Shown here one piece after another: positions 48,117 through 50,674 of a stretch of 64,000 bases of DNA. Position 1 is the first letter of the stretch. Each line of letters begins with the position of its first letter. The translations under genes were made by a program, and so were the position numbers. The notes under the pieces are model-generated. The model searched no databases. It worked only from the letters and a program-made list of their open reading frames with translations, and had not been told where the DNA came from. Source of the DNA: a virus; IMG/VR virus record IMGVR_UViG_3300034110_001237, positions 1 to 64,000 of that record; one strand, 5' to 3'.

Positions 48117-48135
48117 TATTTTTTCAAAAAAAGTA

Positions 48136-48164
48136 TTGCCAAAGTGATCGAAATGTCGTATAAT
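48136..48164 (+). promoter_or_regulatory. Near-consensus promoter for the ncRNA
   Basis: TTGCCA (48136-48141), 17-nt spacer, TATAAT (48159-48164). Predicted start about 48170-48172. No start codon or Shine-Dalgarno sequence follows. Confidence 0.85.
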
Positions 48165-48187
48165 AGTCCCGTTGTTAAGCAATAAGG

Positions 48188-48509
48188 TAATCTTGGGAAG
48201 TTGGCTTAGAAGCAGCCATCTTATAATGAGTAGAGCGGTTGCCATAGGTGTTTGGGATTAAGTGATGGTAAGCATCGGGTTTAAATGATTTAGCGGTCAT
48301 TTAAAGGTATCGGTGACAAGTGAGCCACGGTTTGTCGAAATCGAATCCACATTAAAGTAGATTTTGCAGATCAAAACGCCTCAGCCAAAAGCTCCCAGTT
48401 CTTGCAATAATGTAAGAATTCGCCGTGGTTGTGGTCTTGGTCAAGTAAGGAGGCACCCCAGAAATGGTAAGGCTGAATTCTCTTTTGGCGTAATAGCACA
48501 CCATGATTA
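48188..48509 (+). other. GTPase-associated-centre mimic within the ncRNA (split H42/H43/H44)
   Basis: In 23S rRNA helices 43 and 44 follow one another and are closed by helix 42; uL11 and thiostrepton bind there. Here H43 (48200-48220) keeps the loop with the equivalent of A1067, and H44 (48488-48497) keeps the equivalent of A1095. The GG-GA-x-GTTGG junction 5' of H43 and GC-x-CAC 3' of H44 are also kept. The closing stem differs in sequence but still pairs, as expected for selection on structure. The direct H43-H44 link is replaced by a large insertion. Confidence 0.8.
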
Positions 48510-48533
48510 TGATTGTTTTTGCAACAAAACCTG

Positions 48534-48599
48534 CCACTAAGGCTGACCTTGGCCCTCTAAAAGCTAAAGGGAACGGTTCGACTCCGTTGTGGTGGACCA
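48534..48599 (+). other. tRNA-like 3' domain of the ncRNA
   Basis: T-arm AACGG-TTCGACT-CCGTT (48572-48588), acceptor 3' strand GTGGTGG (48589-48595), discriminator A and CCA (48597-48599). The nearest partner is CCACTA (48534-48539), giving 6 pairs, followed by a mini D-arm (AGG/CCT around CTGA) and a CCCT/AGGG stem with an 11-nt loop in place of the anticodon arm. An alternative partner, CCGTTGT at 48169-48175, would join the 5' and 3' ends as in tmRNA but needs five wobble pairs and overlaps the start site. Confidence 0.6.
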
Positions 48600-48609
48600 A
48601 CTTCTAAAT

Positions 48610-48645
48610 AATGCCAGCTCATAGTGATATGATGTTGGCATTTTA
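48610..48645 (+). terminator. Terminator of the ncRNA
   Basis: AATGCCA (48610-48616)/TGGCATT (48636-48642) with a 19-nt loop and TTTTATT after it. The next promoter begins immediately. Confidence 0.65.
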
Positions 48646-48674
48646 TTGTCTTTATTTTATTTTTATGATATACT
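48646..48674 (+). promoter_or_regulatory. Sigma70-type promoter, extended -10
   Basis: TTGTCT (48646-48651), 17-nt spacer, TGA-TATACT (48669-48674), for the three-gene operon 48701-50674. Confidence 0.65.
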
Positions 48675-48700: not shown

Positions 48701-49357
48701 ATGCCTAATCCCGATAGAATTGCTCAGTTAACTGCAGTGGCTAATATGAGCCAGCTTGACAAAATTGAGCGGTTGACCACTACCATTAAAAAAGTCTACG
48801 GCATTGATGTGTCAGACGTAAAACTGGTTAAGAATCAAACCGCCCAGTACAAAGCGAAAACATCACTTGGTCCTGCTCGTATCTATGTTTATTCGCAGTG
48901 CATTGATATTAAATTCACATCGACTGTAGCATTTGATGGTCAACAACTCACTTTGAAAAAATCCACGGACGTGATTCAAACTATTTTTGATGACATCAAT
49001 AAACGAACGGTTATTTTTAATGTCGTCAAATTACGTCAACAAAATAATAAAGATGTCCATTTTTATGGTAATACCAAATTCAGTATTAAGATTGTGGTGC
49101 GATTTTCTGCGACTAATCCACAACTGTATTTTAAAGCGACACCTTATTCAACGTATTCTTTCTTTAACTACATGAATGAATGTGCCATGTCGGGTTATAA
49201 AAAGACGCTTGAAGTGTATTATTTGAAAGCTGAATTTGATTCCATAACAGGCGTTGAGCAAGCATTCTCTTTTATTAAAGATTACTTTAAAGGTCGGAAT
49301 CTCACGCTTGATGATGCGAAACGTTTAGCTGACTTGCAGGATATGGTAAAAATATGA
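48701..49357 (+). CDS. Tag-family protein, trio member 1, 218 aa
   Basis: First of three tandem paralogues of about 217 aa. Ends ADLQDMVKI. N-terminal helix, then a beta-rich core (ARIYVYSQCIDIKFTSTVAF) and IQTIFDDINKRTVIFNVVKL, which recurs as QLILDDVNKTLHITEALRF in member 3. GGAG before the ATG; overlaps member 2 (ATGA). Confidence 0.8.
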   Translation: MPNPDRIAQLTAVANMSQLDKIERLTTTIKKVYGIDVSDVKLVKNQTAQYKAKTSLGPARIYVYSQCIDIKFTSTVAFDGQQLTLKKSTDVIQTIFDDINKRTVIFNVVKLRQQNNKDVHFYGNTKFSIKIVVRFSATNPQLYFKATPYSTYSFFNYMNECAMSGYKKTLEVYYLKAEFDSITGVEQAFSFIKDYFKGRNLTLDDAKRLADLQDMVKI

Positions 49358-50007
49358 GCATCTTAGATGAAACAAATTCTTCATTTTACAGTGACGGCAT
49401 TTATGCCTCTAGATCTCTATTAAATGAACACTTTAATCTTACATTTTCTAATGTAACTAAATACACTGACCATGACTATAAAGCAGATGGAGATTATGCT
49501 GTTGATATTTACATTTCAAACAGTGATGTTATCTATCTAACTTTTAAAGAAATGATTTCATTAAATGATGGTATCTTGGTATCTGTATTTGATCATCCAT
49601 TGATTAATAAATATCTAGCAGATATGAACGGTTTGTTTTGTATTTTTGATGCTGTTCGATTTACAACTGACGAAAAGAAATTTTTTTATCCTGTTATTGA
49701 AAACCTGAAACCATCCATTGTTTTTAAATATAGTATTCTTAATAGAGAAATGACAATTTCTGTTCAGTTACTTAACACCATTCAAAAAGATGGTGAATCT
49801 ATTTGCACAATAACAAAAAATACTATTATTCAAAATACTTATGAACCAGCAAAGTTTGATCATGTGTATGGATTAAAAAGCCCATTTTATCACAGTGATC
49901 TTTTAATTTATAAAGAAAGAATTTTAAAGGTTTGGGGGATCTCTCCTGACTCTCCAACCATTGACTATAAACAAATGGGACAATTAACCGATATGATTCA
50001 TATTTAA
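49354..50007 (+). CDS. Tag-family protein, trio member 2, 217 aa
   Basis: Close paralogue of member 3: NTYEPAKFDHVYGL against NAYEPSGFKKIYSM, and KVWGISPDSPTIDYKQMGQL against AIWGIPEDSTDIDYHRLGVL. Ends TDMIHI. Translationally coupled to member 1. Confidence 0.82.
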   Translation: MSILDETNSSFYSDGIYASRSLLNEHFNLTFSNVTKYTDHDYKADGDYAVDIYISNSDVIYLTFKEMISLNDGILVSVFDHPLINKYLADMNGLFCIFDAVRFTTDEKKFFYPVIENLKPSIVFKYSILNREMTISVQLLNTIQKDGESICTITKNTIIQNTYEPAKFDHVYGLKSPFYHSDLLIYKERILKVWGISPDSPTIDYKQMGQLTDMIHI

Positions 50008-50017
50008 GGCCATTGTG

Positions 50018-50674
50018 ATGACTGATGAGATAACCTATATTGATAAACTGCCTGTTGAATATAATATCTTACAGAATATTGTAAGTAATCAATTTGGACT
50101 TGTTGTTTCTAAATTTAAACAAGCTCATTATGATGGTTATATTGGACAATCTCAGTATAATGAAACAGTTAATATTTTCACAGCACGTTCAGTCTATTAT
50201 ACTTTTTCATTTGAAAACATTATTACTATTGAGAATAATCAAGTTGTTACTCGATTAAATTCACCCGTTATTCAGCTTATTCTGGATGACGTTAATAAGA
50301 CACTTCACATAACAGAAGCTTTGCGTTTTAGCCATGATGGAATCATCCATATTCCTGTTCTACCTAATGTTAAATCTTGGCTTGTTTTTAAATATAATAA
50401 TAAACTTGAATTCATGACCATTGAAATACACTTTGCAGTAATTCGTGAAGAAGGCTGCGATGCCCCTTATGAATTAACCACAAAAAATGTATTCATCCAA
50501 AATGCCTATGAACCATCAGGTTTTAAGAAAATCTATTCCATGACAGGTGAACTAATTAAAGATGATTTAGCCGGGTATCATAGTAAATTATTAGCCATAT
50601 GGGGTATTCCAGAAGATTCTACTGATATTGATTATCACCGATTAGGCGTATTAAGCGATATGATCACTATTTGA
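50018..50674 (+). CDS. Tag-family protein, trio member 3, 218 aa
   Basis: ATG at 50018 with AAGG about 8 nt upstream; GTG at 50015 is in frame but too close. Ends SDMITI. Beta-rich; last gene of the operon. Function unknown. Confidence 0.82.
   Translation: MTDEITYIDKLPVEYNILQNIVSNQFGLVVSKFKQAHYDGYIGQSQYNETVNIFTARSVYYTFSFENIITIENNQVVTRLNSPVIQLILDDVNKTLHITEALRFSHDGIIHIPVLPNVKSWLVFKYNNKLEFMTIEIHFAVIREEGCDAPYELTTKNVFIQNAYEPSGFKKIYSMTGELIKDDLAGYHSKLLAIWGIPEDSTDIDYHRLGVLSDMITI

Follow-up and report, generated by a model that had tools for sequence, protein, structure and literature searches.

The window analysed here is a stretch of 64,000 nt, positions 1 to 64,000 of virus record IMGVR_UViG_3300034110_001237, and it carries on its plus strand an RNA gene whose parts are given in Table 1. 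The gene reproduces much of the GTPase-associated centre (GAC) of 23S rRNA, with a fold which spans positions 48187-48509 and has its own closing stem. Two copies pointed out in a preliminary description of this DNA were found as described: an exact 21-nt copy of helix 43 (H43), GTTGGCTTAGAAGCAGCCATC, corresponding to 23S 1059-1079 and situated at 48200-48220, and a copy of the loop of helix 44 (H44), GCGTAATAGC, corresponding to 1091-1100 and situated at 48488-48497. The chance expectation of such an exact 21-mer is about 3e-8 per 64 kb. The near-consensus promoter is present as well, and the closing stem P1, said to differ from H42 and still to pair, forms 8 pairs with one T.T mismatch. The layout needed revision in two respects. 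H43 and H44 had been thought to be split by 267 nt, but the insert is 252 nt long and lies within the 5' strand of H44; the pairs G1087-C1102 and U1090-A1101 form across it. The RNA had been taken as an interval of about 430 nt, but the last 69 nt of this interval are a separate tRNA-like cloverleaf, set apart by a spacer of 21 nt, and the GAC RNA proper measures about 320 nt.

Table 1. Parts of the RNA gene in the window (helix and base numbers are those of 23S rRNA).
Feature	Position	Strand	Remarks
Sigma-70-like promoter, TTGCCA-17-TATAAT	48136..48164	+	11/12 consensus matches; start expected near 48171
P1 closing stem, 5' strand; stands where H42 would, sequence unrelated	48188..48196	+	
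H43 stem-loop, 23S 1057-1081	48198..48222	+	sequence; covariation at 1057-1081 and 1058-1080
Junction 1082-1090, ATAATGAGT	48223..48231	+	1082-1086 pair, then G1087, A1088, U1090
P3, an inserted domain of 252 nt with base stem AGAG/CTCT, which interrupts H44 between 1090 and 1091	48232..48483	+	
TTTG linker and H44 tip 1091-1100, plus A1101, C1102, A1103	48484..48500	+	
P1 closing stem, 3' strand	48501..48509	+	
tRNA-like element	48531..48599	+	predicted cloverleaf, MFE -21.1 kcal/mol
Intrinsic terminator: hairpin with a bulge (48610-48642), then a U-rich tract	48610..48650	+	-16.4 kcal/mol; kept in L088 and L181

As read from its sequence, the gene in the window is a self-contained unit of promoter, GAC RNA, tRNA-like cloverleaf and terminator. 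The whole of this unit is kept in the related phage contigs L088 and L181, with the same promoter hexamers and the same spacing between them. Between the window and L181, the P3 hairpin at 48280-48305 differs by two double (compensatory) changes. The energy of the predicted fold is unremarkable, since the window RNA is not more stable than its shuffled versions (z = -1.0), and the case therefore rests on comparison of related sequences. PHROGs gave matches for only one of ten proteins of the window phage and none for the next ORF (48701-49357), while megablast returned no named relative of this phage. That ORF begins a stretch at 48701-50674, 3' of the RNA, in which three similar-looking ORFs of 217-219 aa each lie in tandem.

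The tRNA-like element has an acceptor stem of 7 bp (CTGCCAC/GTGGTGG, strands 48531-48537 and 48589-48595) with G3.U70, a D-like arm, an irregular anticodon arm, a normal T arm (AACGGTTCGACTCCGTT) and an ACCA 3' end. Its acceptor pair A6-U67 is replaced by G-C in L181. Neither ARAGORN nor Rfam reports 48531-48599 as a tRNA, although the cloverleaf and the T arm are kept. A tmRNA was considered and rejected: ARAGORN finds none, and the acceptor strands are local, where those of a tmRNA come from opposite ends of the molecule. Many relatives have a true tRNA beginning at about this same place, from which we infer that the GAC RNA owes its 3' end to RNase P. In pf16 the RNA is followed by tRNA-Pro. 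The element of the window is probably a signal for RNase P; it might have this role only, or might be alanylated.

A family of RNA genes in phages

IMG/VR was scanned with a pattern for the 3' motif, which matched at least 119 loci, nearly all of them with an H43 copy upstream. The second scan used the 5' motif alone, with no 3' pattern, and gave 84 loci; after removal of duplicates, the H44 piece was found downstream in 70 of 74 distinct sequences. Together the family comprises at least 175 loci with 182 scored pairs, a few of these pairs being alternative matches of one member. Nearly all the loci come from phages, many large ones among them, while the 5' pattern matched only twice among 84,980 prokaryotic species, each represented by one genome. 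BLAST added named relatives in Pseudomonas phages pf16, Astolliot, Milchi and UNO-G1W1, Aeromonas phage 4_4572, Serratia phage BF, Vibrio phage 2.275.O, Erwinia phages of the SNUABM group and Kaldavass, Cronobacter phage GAP32, Pectobacterium phage CBB, and Xanthomonas phages XacN1, XbC2 and XaC1; searches with the inserts only matched no further named phages. Known hosts belong to the Gammaproteobacteria and there are signs of the family in Bacillota. One further member found by BLAST, L012 (CP136011.1, 755707-758748), lies in a tRNA array on a "plasmid" of 910 kb from Pseudomonas sp. FeN3W, a megaplasmid which may be a giant phage or a phage-plasmid. Three candidates were discarded: L010 is a chance match within a coding sequence, and L011 and L013 are real 23S.

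In the collected loci the gene belongs to phages and usually stands among tRNA genes arrayed on its own strand. Of 108 members 61 are at most 1 kb from a tRNA, in all 61 cases on the same strand, and 44 are at most 100 nt away, as compared with 15% of positions drawn at random from these loci. As 40% of such random positions are also within 1 kb of a tRNA, the nature of these phage regions accounts for part of the proximity.

At gathering threshold, Rfam reports in the window only a distant tRNA. Under relaxed thresholds the region of the RNA gave one irrelevant weak match and the bacterial LSU rRNA model (LSU_rRNA_bacteria, RF02541), the latter with 17.8 bits over 51 nt where the gathering score is 50 bits. 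Rfam 15 contains no family of this kind, and the literature searched, which included few subscription journals and no bioRxiv collection, holds no description of the RNA or of a close analogue class. This agrees with the earlier statement that no RNA class of such design had been described: these genes form a large and apparently undescribed family of phage RNAs.

Covariation and base conservation of the core

The RNA is built in this order: the 5' strand of P1, H43, the junction 1082-1090, P3 after U1090, a TTTG or TTTA linker, 1091-1100, then A1101, C1102 and A1103, and the 3' strand of P1. MFE folding alone would not have disclosed the structure, which is brought out by covariation. This was counted in 68 members chosen for dissimilar inserts and compared with 1000 arm shuffles; the core columns were placed by hand, as an Infernal model would be swamped by the long variable inserts. 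P1 is paired in 85% (arm-shuffle maximum 60%), uses all four Watson-Crick pairs and has 211 doubly changed cells where shuffling gives at most 103. The preliminary description had named a lack of covarying homologues and a match to a known RNA family as refutations, and on both counts the outcome is the opposite. Pairing amounts to 99% in H43 (maximum 89%), 91% at 1082-1086 (maximum 65%) and 88% at the base of P3 (maximum 59%). In all four elements compensatory changes are numerous. We conclude that this is almost certainly a real class of RNA with a GAC-type fold. Chance similarity, a relic of rRNA or an assembly artefact would be in agreement with the ordinary stability of the window RNA, but the same two-piece design at no less than 175 loci, the strong covariation and the reciprocal search leave such explanations a negligible probability; the covariation refutes them, and the claim that the RNA is no rRNA fragment left by chance holds.

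The longest inserts measure about 450 nt. The shortest, a hairpin of 23 nt, belongs to L144, the minimal member, which consists of the GAC and this hairpin and has a core of about 90 nt; L139 and L143 have inserts of near 35 nt. Since L144 is almost without P3, the GAC seems to be the essential part. A second insertion site is found at the bulged base U1078 of H43 in about a dozen members, and extra sequence at this base, often a hairpin, was noted in L018, L037, L051, L068, L078, L081, L099, L105, L112 and L121. Some phages (L002 and L009, 1153-1679; L080; L112) have tandem members with different inserts, and in L002 and L009 the first copy is strongly diverged, with only 4-5 of 9 P1 pairs. 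Certain insert types recur, namely CACCCCG.AA..GGTAAGG (the type of the window), GCGAAATG and ACCCTTAGA, in L002, L003, L026, L033, L041, L006 and others, which suggests several P3 subfamilies, each with its own partners. In XacN1 and L016 a terminator-like hairpin stands right behind P1, as expected of a free RNA gene.

Two of the longest members contain hairpins that resemble the sarcin-ricin loop, AGTACGAGAGGAA in L119 and AGTACGAAAGGAAC in L130. A search for other pieces of rRNA in the inserts gave as its best match this loop of L119, with 26.3 bits, which is not above shuffles. In L072, a relative of L119, the GNRA tetraloop of the hairpin is lost, and the hairpins of L119 and L130 may accordingly be only a common bulged-G motif.

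The family was set against 17 distinct genuine host 23S sequences, mostly from two phyla. The pair 1057-1081 is A-T in all 17 of them, while the 68 phage members have A-T in 58, C-G in 8 and G-C in 1; the pair 1082-1086 is T-A in all 17, and in the phage members T-A in 30, C-G in 24 and A-T in 8. Pairs that are fixed in the sampled 23S thus covary in the phages, which indicates that the compensating changes arose in the phage RNA. This comparison of sequences shows that the GAC fold is kept by selection outside the ribosome.

Base frequencies on the 5' side were counted in members from the 3'-motif search and those on the 3' side in members from the 5'-motif search, so they are not imposed by the search patterns, except through the limit of four mismatches in H43 and through the registration of the junction. 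G1059, U1060, A1077 and C1079 are present in 85 of 85 members. A1084, A1085, G1087 and A1088 are likewise found in 85 of 85, but these four are fixed by the TAA-GA pattern with which the junction columns were registered; of the 23 members set aside at this step most carry these bases too, shifted by one position or preceded by an insertion. All six bases of the tertiary core that binds uL11 (U1060, A1077, A1084, A1085, G1087 and A1088) are present in the window. The exposed tips behave differently. The preliminary description noted that A1067 and A1095 are kept, which is true of the window; across the family position 1067 is A in 66 of 85 members (19 have another base) and position 1095 in 37 of 42 (5 have another base), as against 17 of 17 host 23S in both cases. 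Further, 1068 is A in 15 of 85 and 1096 is G in 14 of 42, at positions with little or no variation in 23S, A1061 occurs in 21 of 85 members and in none of the 17 host sequences, and 1101 is A in the phage RNA where 23S has T. A1067 and A1095 are the drug and elongation-factor contacts. The core is thus kept while these contacts are relaxed, a pattern that speaks for uL11, or at least for the fold, more than for elongation factors and that weakens the emphasis first placed on contacts with EF-G, EF-Tu, RelA and thiostrepton.

Possible partners and uses of the RNA

Taken out of the ribosome, the 58-nt GAC is known to fold by itself and to bind uL11 in vitro, and A1061 is the variant used in that work (PMC4409310; PMC10161774). 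An RNA that mimics rRNA and so catches a ribosomal protein is already known from the autoregulation of uL1, and phages recruit bS1 (PMC10931766). Judging from the conserved core, uL11 probably binds the phage GAC RNA. As no uL11 gene was found in 32 carrier records, the window record included, a phage-encoded uL11 was rejected as the partner, which would then be that of the host. The explanation we put forward, at a little under an even chance, is that of a standalone GAC domain which binds host uL11 and whose most likely use is sequestering it. The window RNA would be transcribed from its own promoter through to the terminator, and a cut by RNase P at the tRNA-like element (at the real tRNA in relatives) would yield the mature 3' end. 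The core would fold as within 23S, and host uL11 would bind to it via its C-terminal RNA-binding domain. An abundant and stable RNA could then withhold uL11 from ribosomes that are newly made or exchanging, or bring it into a phage RNP, while the variable P3 arm might bear lineage-specific partners. The likeliest gain would be a damping of uL11-dependent steps, above all of RelA activation and (p)ppGpp synthesis. Activation of RelA requires uL11 (PMC7058999; PMC3372295), and damping of the stringent response is therefore the most useful consequence that we can name. That the purpose of the RNA is to sequester uL11, with an effect by way of RelA or some other step dependent on uL11, is a tentative proposal. 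Equally doubtful is the full account in which widespread phage RNAs took the GAC from 23S, rebuilt it with new stems and capture host uL11, thereby switching off the stringent response or other uL11-dependent functions. Sequestering requires amounts of RNA comparable to those of free uL11, and mature ribosomes hold this protein firmly. A core that is invariant for the sake of folding would look identical with another protein bound or with none, and the large lineage-specific inserts suggest functions beyond those of a simple decoy.

In another explanation the GAC is a stable scaffold that presents P3 or binds a phage protein, with no role for uL11 or in translation. The size and diversity of P3, the second insertion site at U1078 and the tandem members whose inserts differ within one phage are all in accordance with it. 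Nevertheless, P3 is almost absent from the minimal member L144, and a scaffold alone has no need of near-exact rRNA sequence, for example at A1077, C1079 and U1060, so we regard it as unlikely, if the most serious of the alternatives. On the ribosome the GAC is contacted by translational GTPases and by RelA, and the RNA could imitate this factor-binding site as their decoy or docking platform. The sarcin-ricin-like hairpins of L119 and L130 would fit such a use, but their similarity to rRNA is not above shuffles and L072 has no GNRA loop; moreover the factor-contact bases A1067 and A1095 are relaxed and H42, the uL10 side, is missing, which makes this use improbable. Since H42 is not copied, the proposal that the RNA docks on the stalk base of the ribosome is left without support. 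Somewhat better placed, although still quite unlikely, is a substrate decoy, that is, a spare GAC offered to toxins, nucleases or modifying enzymes of the host or of competitors which attack this site of rRNA, much as the tRNA arrays of phages make good the tRNAs that defence systems destroy. The target bases of such a decoy should be kept, yet it is the exposed tips 1067, 1068, 1095 and 1096 that vary most, and we know of no anti-phage defence directed at the GAC. On the other hand, the RNA sits in phage tRNA arrays, and Tre23, a toxin that attaches ADP-ribose to the GAC of 23S, shows this site to be a real toxin target (PMC9990079). Against Septu, a defence that cuts tRNAs, phages are helped by tRNA genes of their own, so such arrays can be counter-defence, which keeps the toxin decoy alive as an explanation (PMC13096335).

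Comparison with known systems

With the GAC of 23S, the 58-nt uL11-binding domain formed by H42-H44, the phage RNA shares the sequence and loop of H43, the junction 1082-1090, the tip of H44 and the bases of the tertiary core. It differs in being, by all appearances, a separate gene and transcript, in the replacement of H42 by unrelated stems, and in that H43 and H44 are not contiguous, an arm being placed between 1090 and 1091. In the phage RNA U1090-A1101 stands in place of A1090 or U1090 with U1101, and A1067 and A1095 are not fixed. A functional centre of the ribosome has apparently been lifted out, re-engineered and selected as an independent RNA in many phages, which suggests that phages use a piece of the ribosome as a separate tool. 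The family also provides natural variation, freed from the constraint of the ribosome, for a fold that is among the best-studied models of RNA folding. Behind the long non-coding RNA MALAT1, the tRNA-like mascRNA lets RNase P make the 3' end; the tRNA-like 3' element of the phage RNA is similar, here in a bacterial phage and with processing that is only presumed.

Autoregulatory mRNA sites for uL1 and other leaders of ribosomal protein genes are, like the RNA described here, non-ribosomal RNAs that imitate the rRNA site of a protein (PMC10931766). The phage RNA differs from them as a free-standing gene, not part of the mRNA of a ribosomal protein, and would serve uL11 rather than uL1. That it is no such leader is indicated by its own terminator, by a following ORF without a PHROG match and by a record which holds no uL11 gene. 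It would be a natural free-standing mimic of rRNA, outside the leaders of ribosomal proteins. The large OLE RNA, suggested to hold the ribosomal protein RpsU (PMC12286853), is unrelated to it in sequence and structure and is not a phage RNA. The Rfam models of ROOL and GOLLD match neither the window (at gathering threshold) nor 48120-48640 or 16 relatives (at relaxed E-values). These two classes are, like the present family, structured RNAs borne by phages, often near tRNA islands and of unknown function (PMC12286853), while the phage GAC RNA is shorter and contains a recognisable domain of rRNA. It would be a third class of tRNA-island phage RNA beside ROOL and GOLLD, and the first with a built-in guess at its partner, uL11, with a bearing on phage control of host translation and of (p)ppGpp signalling.
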